This document shows, piece by piece, positions 8,223 through 63,742 of a stretch of DNA of 64,000 nucleotides (positions within the stretch are counted from its first letter, which is position 1; every line of letters starts with the position of its first letter). Origin of the DNA: Cyanosarcina radialis HA8281-LM2 (GTDB lineage: Bacteria; Cyanobacteriota; Cyanobacteriia; Cyanobacteriales; CCAP-1448); the NCBI GenBank assembly GCA_019359615.1, contig JAHHHA010000005.1, positions 124,001 to 188,000 on the forward strand. The letters are read 5' to 3'. The notes beneath the pieces were generated by a model. That model was not told the DNA's origin. It saw nothing but the letters and a program-made list of their open reading frames with translations, and made no database searches. The position numbers and the translations under genes are program-made.

Positions 8223-9995
8223 ATGAAGCAGAGATTACGAGCCTTTATATATCTTCTCAGTGAAGGTAATCTTAAAGTTTTTGGCACCATTTTTATTACA
8301 GGATTATTTGTAATCCTAGCCAGAGTTCTGGCACCAGTTCAGATCGCTAGCGATCAGGGGCTTCAGTTACAAGCCGCTCATCGTCTGGTGCAAGGTCTAG
8401 GGCTAACAGTTGCCTTAAGTTTAAATTTCGATCTCAATCAACCACCAAATTCTGAATATCTCACCCATTTCCCGCCAGCATTTTCACTACTCGTTGCGTC
8501 TTTGCTATTTTTCAAGATGCCGCTGGCAACTGCTCTCAAAATCATCTATGGGCTGACAACCATAGTGGGCTGGTTCTGTTGGGCGGCGATCGGTAGTCGT
8601 TTGCTCTCAACATCCTTGAAGGTGGGTAAATTCTTGCTACCTCTACAGTACGTCATAGCTGTCATCCTGCCTATCTTATACACTCCATCTTGGAGCACTC
8701 AAGGAACCGATATATTTTTGTGGTCTGGCGTTCCGGCGATCGTACTTTTACTCCTTCATTCATCTGACAACAGATTTAAAAACATATTCTCGATATCGGC
8801 TGGACTGCTATTTGGATTGTTATTTGCCTTTCGCTATAACAGTATTTTTCTGGTGTTAGCCGCATTCCTGATTCTACTTCAAGTTAATTTTCCAAGATTG
8901 TTAGAGTTGAGTAAAAACTATACTATTTTTCTTGCTTCGTCTTGTTTTTTTATTGTCCCAGTTTTTATTTATAATAAGATGGTTATGAGTGGCAATATCC
9001 TACCAAGTCAGGCTACACGAAGTAAAGGATTGCTAATTACTGAAGGAATTGATGAAATCTTGAAAAGTCTATCGATGACATCAGTTCTATCTGGATTCAT
9101 CCCAACAAGTTTCATAAGTCACATACAATCTTACACCCTAATAAATTACGTATATGGTTTGGTTTGGTTCTCGATCTTATTATCTGCTCCATTTATTGTT
9201 GCTTTATATAAAAAGTCTAATATTGTCGCAATCGCGAAAGATACTGCGATCGCTATATCTCTTTTGCCAATTTCATTAATTATATATTTTATTGCTGCGG
9301 TATTTCGCGTCTCCTATAGTCCGATCGATATTGCTAGATATTATCTCCCTATCAATTTTTGTCTGATTCTGATTATCTACAATCTTGCTACCTTACCAAA
9401 CGATCGAATTTCACTTCGATTAGGAAAAGAGCAACACCTTAGAGCGAGATCGCTCTTACAAAAAATTAGCTATTTTATCGAGACTGCTACTTACATTTCT
9501 ATTTGTCTATTTCTGGTTTTTAATCTTTTTTATCGGCCTGCTGCTTTCGCCTTAAAAAAATTTACAACTTTCACCGATCTATTTCTAGGAATCACTGCGG
9601 TGCCCAAATTGGAATATCCTGCTAACAAAATAATTACAGAGTACGATCGCTCCTTATCTGTAATGGAGGCATTAGCTAAGGAAGATGCAAATACGCTGTT
9701 CTTCGTGCAGGATGCTGCTATCCTTAGTTATAATAATCCCGATAATTATCGCAGAATACCCAACCAGCAATTTTGGGAGAGAGCCTTCGTAAGTAAAGCT
9801 ACAAAAATGGTTTGGGTTATCGCCGATCCAAACTGCTCTCAAATTTGTACTTCTCAAGATGCTCTGGTGGGAAATTCAGTTCCTATAGATTTAGCTTTAC
9901 CTCATCTAAAACTGCTGTTTGTCGATCCATTTAATGGCACAAAGATTATGATTTCTGATTTGCCTGACAAGTATGAGTTTTCTAGAAAACGCTAA
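8223..9995 (+). CDS. Polytopic membrane protein, GT-C glycosyltransferase-like
   Basis: The 590-residue protein has about ten to twelve hydrophobic segments up to residue 450, then a soluble C-terminal domain (about 455-590). The architecture and the acidic motif in the first outer loop (IASDQGLQLQAAHRLVQG) resemble GT-C fold lipid-linked sugar transferases of the ArnT/PMT kind, but no signature is strong enough for a substrate. The open frame extends upstream to a TTG at 8169; ATG 8223 is preferred because AAGAGAAATT gives a ribosome binding site and a hydrophobic segment follows. The base composition is more AT-rich than the neighbours, which may indicate transfer. Function is inference. 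Confidence 0.6.
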   Translation: MKQRLRAFIYLLSEGNLKVFGTIFITGLFVILARVLAPVQIASDQGLQLQAAHRLVQGLGLTVALSLNFDLNQPPNSEYLTHFPPAFSLLVASLLFFKMPLATALKIIYGLTTIVGWFCWAAIGSRLLSTSLKVGKFLLPLQYVIAVILPILYTPSWSTQGTDIFLWSGVPAIVLLLLHSSDNRFKNIFSISAGLLFGLLFAFRYNSIFLVLAAFLILLQVNFPRLLELSKNYTIFLASSCFFIVPVFIYNKMVMSGNILPSQATRSKGLLITEGIDEILKSLSMTSVLSGFIPTSFISHIQSYTLINYVYGLVWFSILLSAPFIVALYKKSNIVAIAKDTAIAISLLPISLIIYFIAAVFRVSYSPIDIARYYLPINFCLILIIYNLATLPNDRISLRLGKEQHLRARSLLQKISYFIETATYISICLFLVFNLFYRPAAFALKKFTTFTDLFLGITAVPKLEYPANKIITEYDRSLSVMEALAKEDANTLFFVQDAAILSYNNPDNYRRIPNQQFWERAFVSKATKMVWVIADPNCSQICTSQDALVGNSVPIDLALPHLKLLFVDPFNGTKIMISDLPDKYEFSRKR

Positions 9996-54163: not shown

Positions 54164-54997
54164 TCAAATTTCGATCGCCTTCACGCCCAAACCTACCATT
54201 TTTCCGTTGCCATTTTGAGTAACAGAATCGATCGCCTGTACGTCTTCTAACAAGCAGTAAGGACGGCTGTAACTGAGTGGTGATTCTAAGTGATGCCGTT
54301 CTAAAAAATCGCGATCGCCTAATATTTGTTCTGTCGCCCCGTCGCCTACAACTTTGCCCTCGCTCAGAACGATGGTGCGATCGCACAACTCTAAAGCCAA
54401 ATCTAAGTCGTGAGTGGCAATTAATTGCGTTAACGGCAGGCTTTGTAATAAGTAGATTAACTGGCGGCGCGATCGTGGATCGAGTTGAGCCGAAGGTTCG
54501 TCGAACACCAAAACTTGCGGTTGCATGGCCAGTACCCCAGCTATAGCCACTCGCTTTTTTTCGCCCCCAGATAGGTTTTGAGCGTTTCTTTGAGCGTAGC
54601 GTTCGGGATCTAGCCCGACAGCGTGCATCGAGAGAGTACAGCGATCGTCTAATTCCTTCCCCTGCAATCCCTGATTCATCGGTCCGAAAGCAATATCTTC
54701 CCAAACGGTAGGCATAAATATTTGGTCGTCAGGATTCTGAAATACTAAACCCACAAAGTTCCGGATGTTACGCAGATTCTTAGGTGCCATCTGGTACTCT
54801 CCTACCACTACCTGTCCTTCCTGGGGTAGCAGAATCCCGTTGAGGTGCTGGAGCAAAGTTGATTTTCCAGAACCATTAGCGCCTACTAGCGCCACTCGTT
54901 CGGTCGCTTTAATATGTAAATCTATTCCCTTCAGCGCTTGAGTTCCATCTGGATAGATATAGCTAAGATTTTCAATAGAAATGGGATTGTGGTGCAT
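54164..54997 (-). CDS. cbiO: ECF transporter ATPase for cobalt/nickel
   Basis: The ATPase of the group I energy-coupling-factor importer. The 277-residue protein has Walker A GANGSGKSTLLQHLNG (about 38-53), Q-loop FQNPDDQIFMPTV, ABC signature LSGGEKKRVAIAGVLAM (about 142-158), Walker B LVFDEPSAQLDP and H-loop IATHDLDLA. It pairs with CbiQ, CbiM and the PDGLE protein upstream. Metal specificity, Co or Ni, cannot be read from this subunit. It follows cbiQ by 48 bp, last gene of the unit. Confidence 0.93.
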   Translation of the reverse strand: MHHNPISIENLSYIYPDGTQALKGIDLHIKATERVALVGANGSGKSTLLQHLNGILLPQEGQVVVGEYQMAPKNLRNIRNFVGLVFQNPDDQIFMPTVWEDIAFGPMNQGLQGKELDDRCTLSMHAVGLDPERYAQRNAQNLSGGEKKRVAIAGVLAMQPQVLVFDEPSAQLDPRSRRQLIYLLQSLPLTQLIATHDLDLALELCDRTIVLSEGKVVGDGATEQILGDRDFLERHHLESPLSYSRPYCLLEDVQAIDSVTQNGNGKMVGLGVKAIEI

Positions 54998-55004
54998 GGA
55001 GGTA

Positions 55005-55034
55005 TAAGTAATAAGTGATAAGTAATAAGTAAAG
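55005..55034. repeat. Heptamer STRR between cbiQ and cbiO
   Basis: AAGTAATAAGTGATAAGTAA and following units; same heptamer family as at 3178, 5249 and 21585. Lies 12 bp after the cbiQ stop codon on the minus strand. Confidence 0.75.
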
Positions 55035-55045
55035 AATAGCGACTA

Positions 55046-55822
55046 CTATTTTAAGTAAACAGCTTGCCCTAACAAAGCCAAAAGCGCTGTCGAGGTTAAT
55101 GCCAAAATATCTCTTCGTTGATTTTTGGGCATCTTTCTGAGGTGCGGTAAACCATCGTAGCCGCGCGAGAGCATGGCATAATGCACCCGTTCTCCTCGTT
55201 CGTAGGTGCGGATAAATAAAGCTCCGATCGCATTGCCAATTACCAACCGATGCCAGCGCCTGTTACTCATCAAGTTGCGAGAAACTGCGGCTCGTTGCAT
55301 CGAGTTGAATTCCTCGATCAACACCCCGATGTAGCGATACATCGAGGCCAGAATTGCCACCAGCAAGGGAGGAACTCGCAGCGCACCTAGTGCTTGAAGC
55401 AGCACCGGAATTGGAGTGGTGAGAACTAGCAAATTTAGCAGCAATAGCGACAATCCTGCTTTTAGGGTAACGCTGCCTAAAACTGTTAAACCCGTAGTGG
55501 TAATTCTCAGCCAACCCCACTGCCACAGAACTTCTCCCCCATCGCGGAACAACGTACCCAGTAAGATAACCCCGACAAAAGATAGCTCGACGGCAAATCG
55601 CTTCAGCAGCACCGAAAAAGTTACTCGACTGGCCAGCAAAACTCCTAGAATACCGACTCCATAAATTGCCCAAGTCCACCAACGGCCGTTAGGGGTAAGA
55701 GCGATCGCCAGTACCATTAATAGCACGCACGAGATCCGAATTTGAGGAGTCAGATCGTGCCAAGAAGTTTGCTTGTGGCTGTCAACATCTAGGCGAACCC
55801 CACCAATATGTAGTAGCAGCAT
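55046..55822 (-). CDS. cbiQ: ECF transporter T component
   Basis: The 258-residue transmembrane coupling protein with about five to six helices and the two cytoplasmic coupling motifs with Ala-Arg-Gly-like cores: ASMYRYIGVLIEEFNSMQRA (first region) and AMLSRGYDGLPHLRK (second, SRGY). These bind the grooves of CbiO. The start region (MLLLHIGGVRLDVDSHKQTS) is close to a repeat-rich spacer, and the HIGGVRLDVDS beginning is usual for the family. Separated from its partner genes upstream by about 550 bp of nested repeats. Confidence 0.92.
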   Translation of the reverse strand: MLLLHIGGVRLDVDSHKQTSWHDLTPQIRISCVLLMVLAIALTPNGRWWTWAIYGVGILGVLLASRVTFSVLLKRFAVELSFVGVILLGTLFRDGGEVLWQWGWLRITTTGLTVLGSVTLKAGLSLLLLNLLVLTTPIPVLLQALGALRVPPLLVAILASMYRYIGVLIEEFNSMQRAAVSRNLMSNRRWHRLVIGNAIGALFIRTYERGERVHYAMLSRGYDGLPHLRKMPKNQRRDILALTSTALLALLGQAVYLK

Positions 55823-55880
55823 AGGATTGAAGTTAGTTGTAATATTTCTTGTTTCCCCTGCCGTTCTTCCCTCTCCTCGC

Positions 55881-56200
55881 AGGCTACCGTGTATACATAA
55901 GTTATCAGTTTGAAGTTCAGCCTTATCGATCCCCCTAAATTTCCCTTAAAAAGCGGATGCGCTGTGCGGAGGGAACCTCCGCATACAAGCGCACCAAGCA
56001 GCGGATGCAAGTCGCGGCGAGGTTCCCATCTCCTAGCGGAGACGCTTCGCGTACCGTCAGGTCGTCCGCAGGACTTACGCCGTGCAGCTTGCACCAAGCA
56101 GAGGGACGAAGAGATCGGGTTCCCCCCTTTTGAAGGGGGGCTAGGGGGGATCTGCGAGGGTGTAGGCATCAAAACTAAAGATGTGTATACACGGTAGCCT
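55881..56200. mobile_element. 320-bp element with 17-bp perfect inverted ends
   Basis: AGGCTACCGTGTATACA (55881-55897) and its exact reverse complement at 56184-56200. The interior includes the CTTAAAAAGCGGATGCGCTG repeat block (about 55946-56100) shared with 47680-47785 and a CCCCCCTTTTGAAGGGGGG hairpin (56121-56140). It sits in a CCTCTCCT / AGGAGAGG palindrome and parts the PDGLE gene from cbiQ. No coding capacity that I accept. Confidence 0.75.
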
Positions 56201-56368
56201 ACAAGGAGAGGGGCTGGGGGTGAGGTCGGCTTGTGACAGACCTAAAATAATGCGTTTTAAGAAAGCCAAAGCGATCGCCCTCTAACGCACCCTACCGGAT
56301 CGATACGGCCAAAATGAGGCATTGCGGTTGGGTTCGTTGGGTTTCGCTTCGCTCAACCCAACCTACAG

Positions 56369-56722
56369 TTATTCCAATTGAGAGGCATCATCGCTCTCAG
56401 GGGACTTGCGAACTACTAACTTCCCAATTCCCCAAGCTAAACCAAAGGTAGCTAGAGTGCCGACTAAACCAGCTAAAGGAGTAGCTACAGACTCCGGTAC
56501 GCCTCTAAGGGCATACTCATCGAAGATGGCGTAGAACGGCAATTTTTGGGCAGGTTGTTCTTCAACCGCCTTGCTATCGAATTTTAAATCTTGGGCAACC
56601 CGGTCTAATCCATCTGGATTTTGGCTAGCTAGAGGAGACAAAAATACAGCTATTAGCAGGGCAATACCTAAGCCAGTCAGGAAAAATATCCGGTTGCGGG
56701 TACGAGAAGAGTTGTTGTTCAT
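56369..56722 (-). CDS. PDGLE domain protein (CbiN/NikN-like ECF component)
   Basis: The 117-residue membrane protein has two helices, FFLTGLGIALLIAVFLSPLA (about 13-32) and PLAGLVGTLATFGLAWGIGK (about 82-101), with the PDGLD motif just after the first (family consensus P-D-G-L-E) and a periplasmic loop. In nickel/cobalt ECF systems this small protein assists CbiM/NikM. It is placed between cbiM and cbiQ as usual. An octamer GGGGAGAT tract separates it from cbiM. Confidence 0.9.
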   Translation of the reverse strand: MNNNSSRTRNRIFFLTGLGIALLIAVFLSPLASQNPDGLDRVAQDLKFDSKAVEEQPAQKLPFYAIFDEYALRGVPESVATPLAGLVGTLATFGLAWGIGKLVVRKSPESDDASQLE

Positions 56723-56723
56723 A

Positions 56724-56776
56724 AGAGAGAGAGGGAGATGGGGAGATGGGGAGATGGGGAGATGGGGAGATGGGGG
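56724..56776. repeat. GGGGAGAT octamer array between cbiM and the PDGLE gene
   Basis: Five GGGGAGAT units after GAGAGAGAGG, immediately before the PDGLE start codon on the minus strand, followed by short CAACTGACAACTGACAACT repeats. Confidence 0.85.
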
Positions 56777-56831
56777 AAATTAACAACTGACAACTGACAA
56801 CTCCGCACTCCACACTTCCAAAGCTTCTGAT

Positions 56832-57584
56832 TTAACGAGATGAAAGGTGATGCAGTGTAGAAGCTCTGGGTTTTCGGGGCGGACGATAGAACAAATCCGG
56901 TCGAGTGCGCCAAATATAGGCTACGGTGGCGACAGTAATCAAGGCTTCGCCGATACCGATTAAGACGTGCCAACCTACCATGGCGGTTAAAGCTACCGCT
57001 AAGGGTGTCGTTCCCGATATAGCCAGTTGAAACGCGCAGATGGCAGCAGCTACTACTACGCTAACCCAAGAAGCCACAGCCGTACCGATAACCATACCTG
57101 GTAACTTGTCTTGCCCGATCGCTTGTCGAATGGCCTGGAATAAGTAGTAACCGCCAAACGTGCCAATTAATCCCATATTAAAAATATTGGCTCCCATGAC
57201 GCTAATACCGCCATCTTGAAACAGGAAGCCTTGGACGATAAACACTGCTACCATTACCAACGATCCCGCCCAAGGTCCGAGTACGGCACCCGCCAGAGTT
57301 CCGCCCAGCAAGTGGCCGGAGGTACCGCCAGGAATGGGAAAATTAATCATCTGAGCCGCAAAAATAAAAGCAGCACAAACCCCCATTAAGGGAACGGTTC
57401 GGTCTTTATACTCTGCTTCTACTCGCTTCAGTGCTAGAGCAATTAATCCCACAGAGATTGCCCAGGTAACTACACAAACAGGTGGATTTAAATACCCATC
57501 AGGAATATGTAGTGCGAGATAGGGCTGAAAAGTCCATTCTAACCAGCTTGAGAATAACTCTGAAGGCAACATAGTGACGTTCAT
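56832..57584 (-). CDS. cbiM: ECF transporter S component for cobalt/nickel
   Basis: The 250-residue membrane protein that binds the metal. The signature HIPDGYL, which in mature CbiM/NikM coordinates the ion, is at residues 26-32 after an extension (MLPSELFSSWLEWTFQPYLA). About six to seven helices follow, with AAQMINFPIPGGTSGHLLGG carrying the second metal-site His, and GGISVMGANIFNMGLIGT. Start ATG 57584; frame upstream begins at TTG. Preceded by the NicO transporter gene in the same orientation. Confidence 0.92.
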   Translation of the reverse strand: MNVTMLPSELFSSWLEWTFQPYLALHIPDGYLNPPVCVVTWAISVGLIALALKRVEAEYKDRTVPLMGVCAAFIFAAQMINFPIPGGTSGHLLGGTLAGAVLGPWAGSLVMVAVFIVQGFLFQDGGISVMGANIFNMGLIGTFGGYYLFQAIRQAIGQDKLPGMVIGTAVASWVSVVVAAAICAFQLAISGTTPLAVALTAMVGWHVLIGIGEALITVATVAYIWRTRPDLFYRPPRKPRASTLHHLSSR

Positions 57585-57763
57585 AACTAAAACCAAAACT
57601 CCTAAAAGTTGAGTAGATGGCGACTTGACTGGCTGGAGACAGATTTCAACTTTCTTTCAGTAGATACTCTACTTAGGGGGAAATACAATCCCCTCTAGAG
57701 GGATATAAAGTCGTTAAAGCCTTAAAGCTTTCTAAAACTTTTCGACGAACCCACGGGGATCGG

Positions 57764-59284
57764 CTAAATCGGTCGCATTTGCCATATCGCCTGAATGCTA
57801 ATTCCCAAGCCTAAGAGGGTAATTAGTACCGCGCTGGCTACGGGCAATCCCTTCACCCATCGCCCTCGTGCGGGTAGTCGATCGAACAGTCGTTTAGAGC
57901 TAACTAGCAGCAATCCCAACCCTGTCAAAGTAGCTGCTAGTCCCAAACTGAAGGCGAATACTAGCATCAGTCCAGAGCCAATTTGACCGATCGCGATCGC
58001 GCTGAGCAGTAAAACCAAAGCCGAAGGACACGGAACCAAACCACCAGAAATTCCTAAAGCCAGTAGGCTGCGCCAAGTAACAAGCGAACCGTCTGCACCA
58101 GGAGGTAAATGGGAGTGAGCGGGACCGCCATCATGACTGTGGTAGCCGTGGATGTGGTGAGAGTCATCAGCAGCGAAAGCTAAAACTAGGGTTCCAGATT
58201 CTTCCCCATGGTGATGGTTATGGGAATGTTCCCCATGGTGATGGTCATGGGAATGTTCCTCGTGGTGATGGTGGTGATGAGCGTGAGAATGTTCCCCGTG
58301 GTGATGATGTTCGTGAGAATGTTCTCCATGGTGATGGTGGTGGGAATGTTCCTCGTGATGATGGTGGTGATGTTCGTGAGGATGTTTCCAGCGGGACTTT
58401 TTGAAGAGCGGCAGATTAGGGAATCGTTCTTTCAACAGATTGATGCCGATCGCTGCTACCAACAAACCAGATAATAAGCTCAACCAAGGAGTAAGCTGTT
58501 CTGCCAAGATATAGCGGGAAGCAAATAGCGTTACCAACCCCAAAGCGAACACGCCAATAGTATGAGTAATAGTAGTAGTCAATCCTAAAAACAGAGCGTG
58601 TTTTGGGGTAGCTTGCGATCCTACTAGGTACGCACCGACGATCGTTTTCCCATGTCCGGGCGATATCGCGTGAGCCGCACCCCAAACAAAAGCCCCTGCG
58701 ATCGCCATCAATAAGCCCCCAGCGAGCAATTCAGTCGAACGCGGCATCAAAGCAAACTGGCGATTATCTGGACTAAAGATCGAATTTTGAACTTGGCCTT
58801 GATAAAAGATCGTCGCTACGCAACGAGCCGTAGGCACTCCTGGCAGAAACAAATTGTAGTCGATCTTTAAATCTTGAATCGGCTGCTGCCAAGTGTAAGT
58901 TAATAGTAAAGTGCTGTGAGTATTACCTTGGGCCTGCAAATTAGGTGGCAAATTAGCTGTATCTGATGCTCGAACGCTAAGGATACCATTTTGGTGATTA
59001 CCATCCGTCAGACGAATGCGATCGCCCAAAGTAACTTGCAATTGAGTTTGATGTTTGTCAATTTCCCCTGACGACAACCGACCATCTCGATCGTCGTCGG
59101 CCGAACCCACCAAACCAGTAGGAAAAGTCAAAGTCATCGCGGTTTGAGTTTCCCCCACCATCACCTCAGCCACCGCCAGATCTGCCCAGTGAGCCTGCAC
59201 CGGAGTACCAAAAGCGATCGCCAGCAACAAAGCCCCCACAAAAGAGATAAATCTAATCCTGTATCGATGCCATGTCTTATACAT
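57764..59284 (-). CDS. NicO-family nickel/cobalt transporter with EF-hand and His-rich loop
   Basis: A 506-residue membrane protein. Signal peptide (FVGALLLAIAFGTPVQAHWA), an outside domain (about 30-180) with a perfect EF-hand loop DDDRDGRLSSGE (about 60-71), then about six helices. AHAISPGHGKTIVGAYLVGS with TTTITHTIGVFALGLV are the NicO/RcnA-type metal motifs. Between helices lies a loop of about 100 residues (about 295-400) made of HHHHHHEEHSHD-like units, very rich in His. A later helix reads GISGGLVPCPSALVLLLSAI. Direction (uptake or export) cannot be settled. ATG 59284 has GGAGGATATATAT upstream; the frame to 59365 is rejected. Confidence 0.9.
   Translation of the reverse strand: MYKTWHRYRIRFISFVGALLLAIAFGTPVQAHWADLAVAEVMVGETQTAMTLTFPTGLVGSADDDRDGRLSSGEIDKHQTQLQVTLGDRIRLTDGNHQNGILSVRASDTANLPPNLQAQGNTHSTLLLTYTWQQPIQDLKIDYNLFLPGVPTARCVATIFYQGQVQNSIFSPDNRQFALMPRSTELLAGGLLMAIAGAFVWGAAHAISPGHGKTIVGAYLVGSQATPKHALFLGLTTTITHTIGVFALGLVTLFASRYILAEQLTPWLSLLSGLLVAAIGINLLKERFPNLPLFKKSRWKHPHEHHHHHHEEHSHHHHHGEHSHEHHHHGEHSHAHHHHHHEEHSHDHHHGEHSHNHHHGEESGTLVLAFAADDSHHIHGYHSHDGGPAHSHLPPGADGSLVTWRSLLALGISGGLVPCPSALVLLLSAIAIGQIGSGLMLVFAFSLGLAATLTGLGLLLVSSKRLFDRLPARGRWVKGLPVASAVLITLLGLGISIQAIWQMRPI
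58190..58385. repeat. His-codon tandem repeat in the NicO gene
   Basis: Irregular units of about 30-36 bp of the type ATGTTCCCCATGGTGATGGT, coding on the minus strand for GEHSHxHHHHGEHSH. Copies vary slightly and length changes would often stay in frame. Confidence 0.85.
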
Positions 59285-59385
59285 ATATATATCCTCCAAC
59301 CCACGACTGATAACTAAAACTCTGCGCACCTTTGCGCCAATCTCTGCGCACTTCTGCGTTAACAAAGGATCTCCAACCCCCCCGA

Positions 59386-60783
59386 TCAGTTCAATCCAGC
59401 TAGTCCTATCCCCAACCCCAAAGCCAGCCGCGCCTTCTCATCAAATGTGGGGTCAACCTTTTGAGCTTGTTGGAAAAAATTATTAGCAGCCGTTTGGTTT
59501 CCCAGAGCTTGTTCGATTTCCCCTGCTTGGTAAAACAATCCAGCATCCCGAATGCCCGATCTCAACGCCTCTTGCATGACTTTCTGCGCTTCACCCCAAC
59601 GTCCCGCGCTACCCAAAGCCGAAGCTAAAATACTCAGAGTTTCAGGATCGCGGCGGTTGCCAACTTCTTTGAACATCAAAGATAGGGCTGATTTTGCATC
59701 TTCAGGATTTCCCCTTTCTAATAGCAACCGCGCCAACTCTCCTTGATGTCCGAAACCGACTAGATCCTCGCGCAGCCTAGCTTCCGCTCGATCTTGCAAT
59801 TCCGTAGCCTTAGCCTTATCGCCTTGCAAAGCCTGAACGCGAGACATTCCCCGCAAAACGACGTGATCGTAAGTATTAGGCGCTTTTTGCAAGCTAATAG
59901 CAAATTGAGAGTAAGTTTTCTCGGCTTGTTGGTAATTTCCCCGTCTCACCTCTAACTGAGCCAGATTCAACAAAGCTGGAGGATGTTCCGGCAAGATCCG
60001 CAGGCTCTCTCGATAAAGCTGTTCGGCTCGATCGAGTTGTCCTTGCTTGTAGTAGAGGCGGCCGAGTAGAGTTCGCGCCCAAACCGAACTGCCAGCTTCA
60101 CCTGGTTCTTCCAGAGCGATCGCTTGTTGCAAATCTTGCAAGGCTTCTGCATCTCTCCCTTGAGCCACCCGCACCAGAGCGCGTAAAGTTAAAGTTCCTA
60201 AAGTAGGGATGCGATCGACTAGGGTATTAGCCGCACGCTCGGCTTTATCTACCCGACCCAGAGCCAGATTAGATGTCACCAAGATCGAAAAGGTATCCTC
60301 GTTGCCAGAGGCCGATTCGGCTAGTTGAATCGCTTGTTTGAAGTCGTGTCTGGCTTCTGCCACCCGCGCCAAGACGATCGTTGCACCTTGATTCTCAAAG
60401 GGCATTTTCGCCAAAGATTGTTGGGCGTTCTGTTCTGCCAGTAAATACCAACTCGCTTCCCCAGTAGCGCGAGCCATCTTCAGATAGGTTCTAGCCAAAG
60501 AAGCTTGATATAACCCGCTTTCCGGATCTAAGCGCATCTTTCCTTGATAGAAAGCGATTTCTTTTTGTAATGCCAGGGTGACGTTACTCGATGAGGTTTT
60601 CTCAAACGGGTAACGATAGGCACTGTTGGTTCCCGATCCGATCGTCTGCGAAAATAAATGCCAACCGATAGGCACAGCTATCAGAGCTATACCTACAACC
60701 GATAAGCCGATTACCAGGGACTTTGGCAAACTCCTTCTTACTTTTGGCTGCTGCTGGCGATCGTCAACCTTGGTACTTTGCAT
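59386..60783 (-). CDS. Membrane-anchored tetratricopeptide repeat protein
   Basis: The 465-residue protein has a short cytosolic start, one membrane helix (about 22-43, LVIGLSVVGIALIAVPIGWH) and then at least eight TPR-like helix pairs facing outside: LDPESGLYQASLARTYLKMA, ALQDLQQAIALEEPGEAGSS, GQLDRAEQLYRESLRILPEH, GNYQQAEKTYSQFAISLQKA, GNQTAANNFFQQAQKVDPTF. A protein-docking scaffold. It lies between the DUF4331 genes and the NicO transporter, all same strand, suggesting a common process in the periplasm. Confidence 0.88.
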   Translation of the reverse strand: MQSTKVDDRQQQPKVRRSLPKSLVIGLSVVGIALIAVPIGWHLFSQTIGSGTNSAYRYPFEKTSSSNVTLALQKEIAFYQGKMRLDPESGLYQASLARTYLKMARATGEASWYLLAEQNAQQSLAKMPFENQGATIVLARVAEARHDFKQAIQLAESASGNEDTFSILVTSNLALGRVDKAERAANTLVDRIPTLGTLTLRALVRVAQGRDAEALQDLQQAIALEEPGEAGSSVWARTLLGRLYYKQGQLDRAEQLYRESLRILPEHPPALLNLAQLEVRRGNYQQAEKTYSQFAISLQKAPNTYDHVVLRGMSRVQALQGDKAKATELQDRAEARLREDLVGFGHQGELARLLLERGNPEDAKSALSLMFKEVGNRRDPETLSILASALGSAGRWGEAQKVMQEALRSGIRDAGLFYQAGEIEQALGNQTAANNFFQQAQKVDPTFDEKARLALGLGIGLAGLN

Positions 60784-60883
60784 CTCACTAACTCTCCAGT
60801 TTTGAGTAAAATCATCTTTTCTGCTTCCTCCCCTCTCCTATCTCCCCTCTCCTGCGAGGAGAGGGGCTGGGGGTGAGGTCTTA

Positions 60884-62134
60884 CTAGTTAGGCAAAGCCA
60901 AGTAAGGGAAGGACCCAACTAACGGATCGTGTCCTTGAGCGGGGTTTCCAGGAGTGCCAGCATAGGAGACATTATCGGTAGTCACTGCACCATTAGTGAG
61001 AACCTTGAGGGTCAGATCGATGACATCATCTTCAAGCTTGCGACCGCAGATCGGACTTTTCTTAGCATTCAAGCAACTGGCAGGAATACTAGGGCTGTAG
61101 TTACTCGGCTGCGTGGTATCGATCCGCAGCACATCTGGCAAGAAAGCACCAGCTATAGCCGCAATCTGAGTATCGTTGTTACCCAAGGCTTTTAAGGTTT
61201 TCACCGCTTCTGCCACCACTGGAGCCGCCGCTGGACTCAAATCTTGGCTGGGTGGAATGGAATTGAAGGCATTGAGAAAGTCGTTGGTATAGATCAGACC
61301 CTCATTTACCCCCGGTCGCCCCAATCGTTCAAACTGCTTGAAAGTGCCATTTGGCTGCTGTACCGAGATGGTTTGCCAGACATCAAAAGTGGTGGCATTC
61401 ATTGAACCTTTCAAAAACGCTCGCGGTACGCGCACGACTACCGTGTTAACGTTGTAATCTTTCGCAAAGTCAACCGCCTTGTCAGGAGTGCGGAAACTGG
61501 TAGTAGACGGTAAAGGTAGTTTAATAAACCCAGCATTTTTTAACAGAGTGGCACGTAAGGCAAAAAAGCGCGTCACATCAAAAAAGAATGGATCTTCTCG
61601 CAAGCCAGCAAATACGCTCAATTTATAACCGCCGAGATCGATCTGGTTAACAGTAGGAGTAGTAGCTTGACTCAAAGGGGTGGTGAAGATGCGATTGCCA
61701 GAAGTGGTTTTATTAGTGACTAAGTATTGGCCATCGCGAACGGCAACCACCGTTACGTGCTGCCGACCGAAAGGATCTGGGGGAGTAAACCGGAAGCGGA
61801 GTAGAATGTTTCTGGTTCCTGTTGGCGTGGCATTTTTATCGGCGACGCGGGTGATATTGAAGTCGTATAAAGCGGTAGTGCTGAAGTAATATTGCTGGCT
61901 GGGAAGCGATCGCGGATTGCTGTTCATTACCAAGATCAGATCGTCAGCAGCAGCAGTCCGGTTCCGATCGATTTCGCGGAACGCATACAAATCAGTCAAA
62001 CTGACGTTGCGCCCCTTTGTATCGACTTCTCCGTCATCGTGGTCGGATGCCTCAGTATACCAAGGGCTAATCGCAGCCGTTGCTGTCAGCGATAGGGCTA
62101 ATAGACCTACTCCAATAGCTTTTTTGAGATTCAT
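60884..62134 (-). CDS. DUF4331 secreted protein, second copy
   Basis: The 416-residue protein has a signal peptide (MNLKKAIGVGLLALSLTATA, cut near residue 30) and the DUF4331 hallmark right at the mature start: EASDHDDGEVDTKGRNVSL, then TDLYAFREIDRNR, VLVMNSNPRS, FAGLREDPFFFDVTRFFALR and the end GHDPLVGSFPYLALPN. The Asp/His-rich SDHDDGE looks able to bind metal, but the function of the family is unknown. About half of the residues match the upstream paralog. ATG 62134 has AGAGGAG upstream. A DUF4331 - TPR - NicO series follows in the same direction. Confidence 0.9.
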   Translation of the reverse strand: MNLKKAIGVGLLALSLTATAAISPWYTEASDHDDGEVDTKGRNVSLTDLYAFREIDRNRTAAADDLILVMNSNPRSLPSQQYYFSTTALYDFNITRVADKNATPTGTRNILLRFRFTPPDPFGRQHVTVVAVRDGQYLVTNKTTSGNRIFTTPLSQATTPTVNQIDLGGYKLSVFAGLREDPFFFDVTRFFALRATLLKNAGFIKLPLPSTTSFRTPDKAVDFAKDYNVNTVVVRVPRAFLKGSMNATTFDVWQTISVQQPNGTFKQFERLGRPGVNEGLIYTNDFLNAFNSIPPSQDLSPAAAPVVAEAVKTLKALGNNDTQIAAIAGAFLPDVLRIDTTQPSNYSPSIPASCLNAKKSPICGRKLEDDVIDLTLKVLTNGAVTTDNVSYAGTPGNPAQGHDPLVGSFPYLALPN

Positions 62135-62233
62135 TTGAGTTGCTCCTCTGATTGTCAGAATCAGTTATTTTTAGCGATCTTGAGGTTCGATCGACTTTTC
62201 AGTTGCATTTTCTTGCCGTTAAATGCTCTGTTT

Positions 62234-62270
62234 CCAGACCAAAACCTGCTCGTTTTTTGTTCGTTTATGT
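62234..62270 (-). promoter_or_regulatory. Conserved upstream block before second DUF4331 gene
   Basis: Begins ccagaccaaaacctgctcg and ends ttcgtttatgt; 31 of 37 bases match 63795-63831 upstream of the first DUF4331 gene, in the same orientation. It ends 100 bp before the start codon. Confidence 0.6.
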
Positions 62271-62342
62271 CGCGAAAGACAAAACATCTCCCCCCAACTC
62301 CCTTTCATGTTGTTGAAAAGGAGATGTTAATTCTTGATTGGT

Positions 62343-62390
62343 GTTGGGTTGTAGGCGTACCCTGCGGGAAGGCTACGCCTACAACCCAAC
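62343..62390. repeat. 17-bp-stem palindrome (GTTGGGTTGTAGGCGTA)
   Basis: Perfect 17-bp arms with a 14-nt loop (CCCTGCGGGAAGGC), between the two DUF4331 genes. Related GTTGGGTT...AACCCAAC palindromes occur near 56333-56365 and 47531-47561. Probably a dispersed REP-like repeat that may also stop transcription. Confidence 0.7.
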
Positions 62391-62415
62391 CTACAATTCA
62401 CCGTTTTTGACTTTT

Positions 62416-62443
62416 GTACGGGCGCAAAGCTTTGCGCCCGTAC
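62416..62443. terminator. 28-bp perfect palindrome after the first DUF4331 gene
   Basis: GTACGGGCGCAAAG / CTTTGCGCCCGTAC without loop, 15 bp downstream of the stop at 62459 (minus strand), followed on that strand by AAAAGTCAAAAACGG. Could act as terminator or processing site; its relative at 28842-28869 is in the same position after another gene. Confidence 0.45.
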
Positions 62444-62458
62444 GACTTTTGACTTGAT

Positions 62459-63742
62459 TTAATTCGGTTCGGCCAAGTAGGGGAAGTTCGCTAGCAACGG
62501 TTGATGGCCCGTACCGCCAGCGTTAGGCCCTTCGTAAGAAACGTTATCGGTCTTGACTGCGCCATCCGATAAGACGCTTAAGGTGATATCGATTACGTCG
62601 TCTTTGAGCATTCGACCGCGAATCGGGCTGAGTTTGCCATTGAGGGCGTTGCCATAGCCGCTGGGGCCGGTGGTATCGATTCGCATCACGTCGGGCAGAA
62701 AAGCTCCCAAGAGGGCATTAGCTCGATCGTCGCTGTTGCCCAAAGCCTTTAAGGTTGCTTTGGCTTCGGCCACAATCGGCGCGGCGATTTTAGCAGCAGG
62801 TTCTTTTCCTGCTAGGGCATCAGCTTGGAAATCAGGACCGACGCTGTTGTAAGCTGCCAATAGATTTTGACGGATTAGTAGGCCTTCAGCGATTCCAGGT
62901 CGCGCTAGCTGCTCGAACTGCTTGTACTTGCCGCCTCTATCTGGGACTGAAATTGTTTCCCAAACATCAAATGTGGTCGCAGGCTTTTCCCCAAAAGTTT
63001 TAGTACCTTGGAGGAATTTAATCGGAACTCGCACCGCGATCGCATTGACGTTATAACCAGCGGCAAAATCATATCCAGGGCTGCGGAAACCGACTTTGGG
63101 ACCGAAACCAGCTAACCCAGCCCGAACGCGGAAAAACTGCTCGACATCGAAGAAGAAAGGGTCTTCTCGCAAACCAGCAAACACTGCTAATTTATTGCCC
63201 TCTACCGACATCTGGTTGATTATCGGTTCGGCATTGAGTGGGGTGGTGGTGTGTCCTGGAGATTTAATCGCCTTACCGCCTCGAATAATCGTTGCCGTAA
63301 TGCGTTGCTGTCCTTTATCGTTCGGTTCGCCAAATTCAAACCTCAGTACCACATCTTCTTTACCAGTAGCAGCAGCATCGTTATTGCCCACTCGCGTCAC
63401 TTTAAATTCGTAACGGGCGTTAGTGCTAAAGAAGTATTGTTGTCTGGCTAGCGATCGCGGATTGGTGTTCATGACCAAAACTAGATTATCGCCATCAGCA
63501 TTAGGGTTCTGGTCTTTTTCGCGGAAGACGTATAAATCGGTCAAACTCAGGTTGCGTCCCTTGGTATCCACCTCACCATCGTCGTGATCGGAAGCGTTGA
63601 TGTACTGGGGAATAGTGGTAACGCCCAAAGTTAAAGTTAGGGCCAGCAAACTTAAGCCAATAGTTTTTTTCAGATTCATTGGGGGAACTCTGAAAGAAAA
63701 GCGGGGTGAAGATTTGTCATCATCGGTCGTTCGATTTGCCAT
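62459..63742 (-). CDS. DUF4331 secreted protein, first copy
   Basis: The 427-residue paralog of the next gene. From ATG 63742 (AAGGAG ribosome binding site, 7-bp spacing) it has a 21-residue polar extension (MANRTTDDDKSSPRFSFRVP) before the signal core MNLKKTIGLSLLALTLTLGV; the extra part may give a longer signal sequence. The mature protein begins INASDHDDGEVDTKGRNLSL, then FAGLREDPFFFDVEQFFRVR and the end GHQPLLANFPYLAEPN. The role of the domain is unknown. It is the first gene of the colinear nickel/cobalt region. Confidence 0.9.
   Translation of the reverse strand: MANRTTDDDKSSPRFSFRVPPMNLKKTIGLSLLALTLTLGVTTIPQYINASDHDDGEVDTKGRNLSLTDLYVFREKDQNPNADGDNLVLVMNTNPRSLARQQYFFSTNARYEFKVTRVGNNDAAATGKEDVVLRFEFGEPNDKGQQRITATIIRGGKAIKSPGHTTTPLNAEPIINQMSVEGNKLAVFAGLREDPFFFDVEQFFRVRAGLAGFGPKVGFRSPGYDFAAGYNVNAIAVRVPIKFLQGTKTFGEKPATTFDVWETISVPDRGGKYKQFEQLARPGIAEGLLIRQNLLAAYNSVGPDFQADALAGKEPAAKIAAPIVAEAKATLKALGNSDDRANALLGAFLPDVMRIDTTGPSGYGNALNGKLSPIRGRMLKDDVIDITLSVLSDGAVKTDNVSYEGPNAGGTGHQPLLANFPYLAEPN

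Follow-up and report, generated by a model that had tools for sequence, protein, structure and literature searches.

The 64-kb window analyzed here, i.e., the whole stretch of DNA under study (C28:124001-188000 of the 6.5-Mb genome of Cyanosarcina radialis HA8281-LM2), carries eight colinear open reading frames (ORFs), all on the minus strand between positions 54164 and 63742, and each matches its named domain in Pfam or NCBIfam. Read along that strand, they encode two DUF4331 proteins, a tetratricopeptide repeat (TPR) protein, a NicO-type transporter, CbiM, a PDGLE-domain protein, CbiQ, and CbiO (Table 1). The first-pass annotation had listed these eight genes as one candidate metal system, and all of its ORFs and domains were found again. 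DUF4331 is labeled a domain of unknown function in Pfam, and neither DUF4331 nor PF14224 was named in the open-access literature searched, in which the control DUF3494 was found in 32 papers and outside of which most subscription papers lie. The main feature that we add to the earlier description is a histidine predicted to be locked to the third position of the mature DUF4331 chain, together with a regulator pair lying just outside the window.

Table 1. Features of the DUF4331 gene cluster, with positions in the 64-kb window
Feature	Position	Strand	Evidence and remarks
DUF4331 paralog A, exported (predicted)	62459..63742	-	PF14224 203.9 bits (cut-off 27); predicted mature Ser-Asp-His (SDHDDGEVD) from 63592
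DUF4331 paralog B, exported (predicted)	60884..62134	-	PF14224 210.4 bits (cut-off 27); predicted mature Ser-Asp-His from 62047
TPR protein	59386..60783	-	Several Pfam TPR models; one hydrophobic anchor at the N terminus; by eye, TPR part predicted to lie outside the cytoplasmic membrane
NicO-type Ni/Co transporter	57764..59365	-	PF03824 70.7 bits (cut-off 27.7) and DsbD_2; NF007454 145 bits (cut-off 195)
CbiM, substrate component of energy-coupling factor Ni/Co importer	56832..57596	-	PF01891 227.3 bits; N-terminal extension, HIPDG after ...PYLA|L
PDGLE-domain protein (CbiN/NikN-like)	56369..56722	-	PF13190 86.8 bits; NCBIfam CbiN models below cut-off
Inverted-repeat element between the PDGLE gene and cbiQ	55869..56212	.	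344 bases; 29-base terminal inverted repeats, 93% complementary
CbiQ, T component	55046..55822	-	PF02361 119.7 bits; TIGR02454 145.9 bits (cut-off 111.8)
CbiO-like ATPase	54164..54997	-	ABC_tran 103.7 bits; ECF_ATPase_2 257.8 (cut-off 330), cbiO 205.9 (cut-off 211.8)

In both window paralogs, which share 57% identity across the mature part, a hydrophobic segment is followed by A|SDHDDGEVD, the bar marking the predicted start of the mature chain. From 200 DUF4331 proteins of at least 300 residues, 110 remained after a 70% redundancy filter and were aligned; two of these rows, both at contig ends, lack the N terminus (L042 and L232), and paralog A entered two of the alignments without its first Ser, paralog B (the modeled one) being complete. 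His32 of paralog B, residue 3 of the predicted mature chain, is a His in 108 of the 108 rows reaching that column and is the sole His among the 30 best-conserved columns. The exceptions to the motif are fragments shorter than 300 residues that stand outside the 110, namely L268, which reads Ser-Asp-Tyr, and L043, in which no motif is visible. The mature N terminus had already been proposed as a metal site on account of the stretch SDHDDGEVD; the location stands as a candidate, and the informative residue is the invariant Xaa-Xaa-His. As a family motif SDHDDGEVD was rejected, since its acidic part is lineage-specific and only Xaa-Xaa-His is common to the other N-terminal forms of the family, such as SSHREAP, SDHQD, SHHLD, and SNHF.

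The rows reach this terminus by two routes. A row was counted as signal-like when the 30 residues before the motif held a hydrophobic stretch with a nine-residue Kyte-Doolittle mean above 1.5, a rule used in place of a signal-peptide program. Ninety of the 108 rows were signal-like, with Ala (82 rows), Gly (3), Ser (2), Thr (2), or Val (1) at position -1 and A, S, G, V, L, T, or I at position -3 in all 90, which resembles a signal-peptidase site. In all of the other 18 rows, which have no hydrophobic stretch, the motif immediately follows a start codon (15 ATG, 2 GTG, and 1 TTG). The single row that has Val at -1 is probably L189; its public start codon is the GTG immediately ahead of the motif, which places it in this start-codon route as well. 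In seven of eight signal-less plasmid genes (L063 and L188-L193), the publicly annotated chain begins at the codon ahead of the motif; the eighth (L064) is annotated 18 residues longer. Residue 1 is Ser in 104 rows and Ala in 4, ahead of which the initiator Met is normally removed, and residue 2 is Ser, Asp, His, or Asn in the 108 rows and never Pro, the residue that must not occupy position 2 in an amino-terminal Cu(II)- and Ni(II)-binding (ATCUN) site. By prediction only, both window paralogs (A|SDH) fit the ATCUN pattern of a free N terminus, Xaa-Xaa-His, and no Pro at residue 2. Sites of this type bind Cu(II) and Ni(II) (PMC7701195). That two separate maturation routes both expose Xaa-Xaa-His is difficult to account for if the free amine plays no part, and the alignment supports the invariant Xaa-Xaa-His at the predicted mature N terminus as the candidate metal site of the family. 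An invariant, terminus-locked motif of this kind provides DUF4331 with a sharp biochemical prediction.

Among 386 sampled genomes of the window's phylum, 27 have a PF14224 match, the window genome included; among 396 sampled from the actinobacterial phylum to which a Nocardioides genome belongs, 68 do, a count that takes in the Nocardioides genome itself and one match below the cut-off. For the window's phylum, 29 stretches were fetched from the 26 other genomes, and for the Actinobacteria, 79 were fetched from 66 genomes; G386 (the centre, picked for having CbiM), G475 (below cut-off), and the fragments G614:C163 and G397:C8 had been dropped before the actinobacterial counting. A triad was scored when a TPR protein and a NicO-, HupE-, or NixA-type transporter were encoded within 5.5 kb of DUF4331. 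Neighbors were classed with profiles built from the same loci that they then scored, and nine transporters were cross-checked with Pfam, all nine exceeding a HupE or NicO cut-off. The triad was present in 20 of the 29 stretches from the window's phylum; the other nine had a TPR gene at a contig end (two), a HupE gene alone (one), or neither partner (six, among them L036 with a weak TPR match). Among the 79 actinobacterial stretches it was found in 33, with a TPR gene alone in 12, a transporter gene alone in 1, and neither in 32, of which 11 had a contig end downstream; in the remaining one (L264), TPR and NicO genes accompany a DUF4331 fragment below the ORF length limit. It was also present in 68 of the 80 loci nearest to the query, which were picked by similarity to a query that itself holds a triad member. 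The expected link of DUF4331 to nickel/cobalt-type transporters beyond this genome was thereby borne out for the exported class, in which a search for DUF4331-TPR-NicO adjacency recovers the association, and it is largely absent from the signal-less class. Gene neighborhoods reveal a conserved unit, DUF4331-TPR-transporter, that usually lacks CbiMQO and recurs in two phyla beyond chance. DUF4331 itself is present in Cyanobacteria, Actinobacteria, and Proteobacteria, and no viral relatives of the window DUF4331 protein were confirmed.

The transporters adjoining DUF4331 come from several families. Secondary nickel/cobalt transporters include the NiCoT, UreH, and HupE/UreJ types, and CbiMNQO is among the primary ones (PMC2667541). 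A HupE/UreJ gene adjoins DUF4331 in Rhizobium and lies three genes away in a Pseudomonas plasmid, past c-type cytochrome and DUF4198 genes; in Rhizobium bangladeshense the adjoining gene encodes a NicT nickel transporter (equivalog score of 458 versus a cut-off of 450). HupE_UreJ_2 genes stand by DUF4331 in L033, L034, L035, L059, and L060, and genes for cation diffusion facilitator transporters do so in L040 and L061. One Streptomyces plasmid has the order DUF4331-TPR-nickel transporter, and Nostoc sp. MS1 is annotated as DUF4331-hypothetical-TauE/SafE, its hypothetical and TauE/SafE genes being of the TPR and NicO types by profile search. Public records name the partner transporters nickel transporter, TauE/SafE, or HupE/UreJ. 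In L058, an alternative oxidase gene (8831-9538) lies directly downstream of a signal-less DUF4331 gene.

The partner transporters, too, show a His after a signal-like stretch. The window NicO protein comprises a signal-like stretch, an ectodomain starting at A|HWADLAVAE (by eye), the NicO membrane part, and a long His-rich loop. In 126 of 127 transporters, the ectodomain opens with a His right after a hydrophobic AxA-like stretch, the residue at -1 being Ala in 114, Ser in 6, Thr in 3, Gly in 2, and Met in 1; the His words (HPLG, HWAD, etc.) were picked after reading the sequences, and the tests are therefore residue -1 and the hydrophobic stretch rather than the His. The lone miss, L231, has a shortened frame start and reads AAA|HPLG. 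Of 15 CbiM sources, 10 have an ATG immediately ahead of HIPDG/HVPDG, and three (the window, L278, and L283) have Ala-Leu there. In L277 and L280, an Ala precedes the Met ahead of the motif, which leaves the maturation route ambiguous, and L091 and L251 gave no usable match at the CbiM N terminus. In L059 (3768-4880) and L060 (11153-12208), the HWADLAV ectodomain is kept but joined to a membrane part of the HupE_UreJ_2 rather than the NicO type, i.e., the membrane domain is swapped; the DUF4331 gene of both loci, like that of L056, is broken into two ORFs. The transporter ectodomain further contains an EF-hand-like loop (DDDRDGRLSSGEID and variants), noted by eye in the window (57764-59365), L037, L039, L046, L059, and L065, which is possibly calcium-binding.

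CbiMQO joins the triad only occasionally and in several geometries, as judged from gene order. Within the window, M, N-like, Q, and O components of a CbiMNQO/NikMNQO importer all reach Pfam cut-offs, and only CbiQ exceeds an NCBIfam cut-off (TIGR02454); this CbiM is the sole CbiM match in its genome, which also has nickel uses in the form of urease alpha and a NiFe-hydrogenase-family match. CbiMQO stands beside the triad in 5 of the 80 nearest actinobacterial loci. Three of these, all from Nocardioides, have the window's order, L136 with one DUF4331 gene rather than two and PDGLE included, and L137 and L141 without a detected PDGLE gene; in L091 CbiMQO lies upstream and in L132 it is divergent. 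In the evenly drawn actinobacterial sample it lies by DUF4331 in 2 of 79 stretches (L242, divergent; L251, in another order). Two of the 25 CbiM-bearing sample genomes have CbiM within 10 kb of DUF4331, compared with 0.16 pairs expected (P of about 0.012, from rounded genome sizes and with the window excluded). A fixed place for CbiMQO in the system was therefore rejected, given 0 of 29 stretches in the window's phylum and the 2 of 79 and 5 of 80 actinobacterial counts; of the single eight-gene system first proposed, the DUF4331-TPR-transporter core remains. Neither the window nor five loci with CbiM gave any Rfam riboswitch match at cut-off, the cobalamin riboswitch included.

In sequence extending 12 kb further, an extracytoplasmic function sigma gene (Sigma70_r2, 61.7 bits) and a ChrR-cupin anti-sigma gene (PF12973, 62.1 bits) lie divergently by the first DUF4331 gene, just outside the window. 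A ChrR-type pair is likewise divergent from DUF4331 in six further loci (L044, L045, L047, L048, L049, and L050). The cupin of the anti-sigma protein carries H-x-H-x3-E plus later His residues. By eye, no Cys occurs in its first 100 or so residues, and the ligand set of the zinc anti-sigma domain, His6, His31, Cys35, and Cys38 (PMC6852236), is not present there. In the actinobacterial sample, 10 of 79 stretches have a sigma gene of the same kind no more than 3.5 kb away on the opposite strand, and two more have one on the same strand; the anti-sigma gene tested in five of those loci is of the RskA type, not ChrR. All seven intergenic regions having the sigma/ChrR pair contain GATCCA-N15-CGTATA pointing toward DUF4331. 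Across 13 DUF4331 genomes, this pattern has 20 sites versus 4 for the same pattern read backwards. It occurs at the DUF4331 locus in seven of seven genomes with the pair, and five of the six genomes without the pair have no site, the sixth (G197) having one that is followed only by a 93-residue ORF. Other sites in one cyanobacterial genus precede genes for RTX-repeat proteins (L288, L300, L302, and L303, by sequence), with DUF4394 confirmed by Pfam in L288 only, and a ferritin-like gene in L301 and L045. We regard the GATCCA-N15-CGTATA sites as the predicted regulon of the sigma factor. Two sites are likely chance occurrences: a second one in the window genome (C5:34610), followed only by a 69-residue ORF, and that of L304, which precedes a frame probably already coding. 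The ferritin-like gene of L045 (10991-11767) lies between the sigma and DUF4331 genes with its own promoter-like copy. DUF4394 is also found near DUF4331 in a Streptomyces plasmid, and no open-access literature on DUF4394 was found.

The structure model of window paralog B was modest (pLDDT of 66.7), and that of a Nocardioides relative reached a pLDDT of 88.4 and a pTM of 0.91, with many strands and some helices. Its first ten residues have a mean pLDDT of 54, which fits a free arm, but a missing metal could also explain it. Foldseek searches against PDB and BFVD gave no match at an E value of 0.001 or better; the highest-ranking PDB entry was a CBM9 carbohydrate-binding module (E value of 2.7e-3, probability of 0.51, and TM-score of 0.16 by query length), and a sequence search of solved structures returned one weak match (E value of 0.003). 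VIA ranked antibody beta-sandwiches highest (Z of 6.9 over 119 residues and of 6.2 over 149), which we read as a common arrangement only. From these weak fold matches, we infer a beta-sandwich body for DUF4331.

Taken together, we give slightly better than even chances to a reading in which the locus would encode an extracytoplasmic carrier or buffer of nickel and cobalt (or copper) for NicO-type transport, with uptake and efflux both possible. Signal peptidase outside, or removal of the initiator Met inside the cytoplasm, would expose the Xaa-Xaa-His of DUF4331, whose N-terminal amine, two backbone amides, and His3 would clamp Ni(II), Co, or Cu(II) in the square-planar geometry of ATCUN chemistry. 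Held in place by the beta-sandwich body and the anchored TPR protein, the clamped metal would stay near the His1 ectodomain of the transporter and would be handed to, or taken from, the NicO permease; here we infer both docking of DUF4331 on the TPR protein and the hand-over itself. The NicO partner is predicted to begin with His after signal cleavage, and CbiM with Xaa-His or Met-His. As the sole CbiM-type importer of this genome, the energy-coupling factor system would add an ATP-driven route of uptake, and the divergent sigma factor would probably switch expression, held by the anti-sigma protein with its metal-ligand-bearing cupin. A broader proposal, that DUF4331 is a widespread and so far undescribed family of ATCUN carriers for Ni(II)/Co or Cu(II) passing metal to transporters that expose an N-terminal His, is more tentative, and we place it somewhat short of an even chance. 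If true, it would add a carrier family for nickel/cobalt (or copper) in Cyanobacteria, Actinobacteria, and Proteobacteria, tied to transporters annotated as nickel, TauE/SafE, or HupE/UreJ, and every step of the pathway would link one N-terminal histidine to another.

NikM/CbiM (Met-His) and Ni superoxide dismutase bind metal through their own N terminus. The nickel chaperone HypA binds through its N-terminal amine and His2, in an MHE motif (PMC7055735). DUF4331 would resemble this group in its His at position 3 (position 2 or 3 across the group) and in the predicted use of the terminal amine as a ligand; unlike HypA, it has about 390 residues, is mostly exported, and carries Xaa-Xaa-His, the likeness being one of motif. 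RcnA and RcnB are a nickel/cobalt efflux pump and a periplasmic protein (PMC7689651), and the window cluster resembles this E. coli pair in combining a NicO-family permease with a His-rich loop and a periplasmic protein. It differs in that the window NicO protein falls below the NF007454 cut-off and has a signal-like stretch and ectodomain, that DUF4331 and TPR proteins take the place of RcnB, and that the divergent sigma/anti-sigma pair adjoins the cluster. As in CbiMNQO/NikMNQO importers, CbiM, PDGLE (CbiN-like), CbiQ, and CbiO are encoded together, but in the window they are joined to DUF4331-TPR-NicO, with no riboswitch at Rfam cut-offs. The regulator pair, a sigma gene followed by a ChrR-like cupin anti-sigma gene, recalls ECF11 sigma-E/ChrR of Rhodobacter sphaeroides, in which ChrR responds to singlet oxygen (PMC6852236), but the N-terminal part of the window anti-sigma protein is without Cys and the promoter-like site here is GATCCA-N15-CGTATA.

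Several observations weigh against a nickel/cobalt carrier bound to transport. The 32 actinobacterial stretches with neither TPR nor transporter belong above all to the signal-less class, whose neighbors include an alternative oxidase, a sodium/proton exchanger, and a major facilitator superfamily protein; the usual lack of partners beside signal-less DUF4331 argues against a role tied to transporters alone. In the window's phylum, 16 of the 26 genomes have CbiM, yet none of the 29 stretches places CbiMQO near DUF4331. Of the 12 annotated plasmid records, 7 show no nickel/cobalt transporter in the stretch (those of Methylocystis, three Streptomyces, Mycobacteroides, and two Rhodobacterales), the PLSDB gene tables being incomplete. 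Fold searches yielded no relative of known function. An ATCUN site fits Cu(II) too, which is usually bound more tightly. Nor does the sequence favor uptake, the sole NCBIfam match of the NicO protein being to the below-cut-off nickel/cobalt efflux model NF007454, which we take to be RcnA. This model also scores best for the relatives L062, L136, L046, and L196 (101-117 bits, all below the cut-off), and it points to an efflux or tolerance module in which NicO would be an RcnA-type exporter and DUF4331 an RcnB-like periplasmic modulator or sink keeping exported nickel and cobalt from returning. The His-rich loop of the NicO protein, the stress-type sigma control, and the cation diffusion facilitator genes that adjoin DUF4331 in L040 and L061 would fit such a module, but neighbors elsewhere come from the importer families NicT, HupE, and CbiMQO, and we consider it unlikely, if the most serious of the rivals.

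Somewhat less likely still is that His3 serves a structural role or belongs to a buried site formed with Asp48, Asp181, Asp186, Asp298, Asp369, Asp370, and Asp387 (paralog B numbering), instead of a free clamp. Several Asp columns are indeed almost as conserved as His3, with Arg365 and Asp48 found in 109 of 109 rows, but the low pLDDT of the first ten residues in an otherwise good model and the start-codon and cleavage-site data, which show that the terminus itself is kept, speak against this. A copper or redox role, with DUF4331 as a Cu(II)-ATCUN or redox protein and the transporters carrying other cargo, appears improbable to us: ATCUN sites bind Cu(II) as well as Ni(II) (PMC7701195), the neighbors elsewhere include a c-type cytochrome and an alternative oxidase, ferritin-like and DUF4394 genes have the same promoter-like site, and ChrR of R. 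sphaeroides answers singlet oxygen (PMC6852236), but the recurrent transporters are of nickel/cobalt families and none of the eight window genes matches a copper family in Pfam or NCBIfam. Very improbable is a chance neighborhood, i.e., a secreted pair beside an unrelated importer. The absence of CbiMQO near DUF4331 from the other stretches of the window's phylum would agree with it, but the recurrence of the triad in two phyla disfavors it for the triad, and the window's order is found again in L136, L137, and L141. Our preferred reading remains a carrier or buffer that would serve NicO-type transport.

Some features of the cluster bear on its gene calls and transcription. The frame of paralog A is open up to 63814, and the in-frame ATG at 63742 is preceded by a ribosome-site-like AAGGAGAC, making a start at 63742 more likely than the longer ORF. 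A palindromic hairpin with a 14-pair stem lies between the two DUF4331 genes (62414-62445); with its T-rich tail on the plus strand, it does not qualify as a classical terminator of the strand that carries DUF4331. From DUF4331 to CbiO, the intergenic gaps measure 324, 100, 20, 167, 109, 546, and 48 bases, which is not tight packing, and the 546-base gap holds the 344-base inverted-repeat element, which appears to resemble a miniature inverted-repeat transposable element. Because of these uneven gaps and the element, a single transcript over all eight genes is only a candidate. A tandem 8-base repeat, GAGATGGG, occupies positions 56727-56774 between cbiM and the PDGLE gene.

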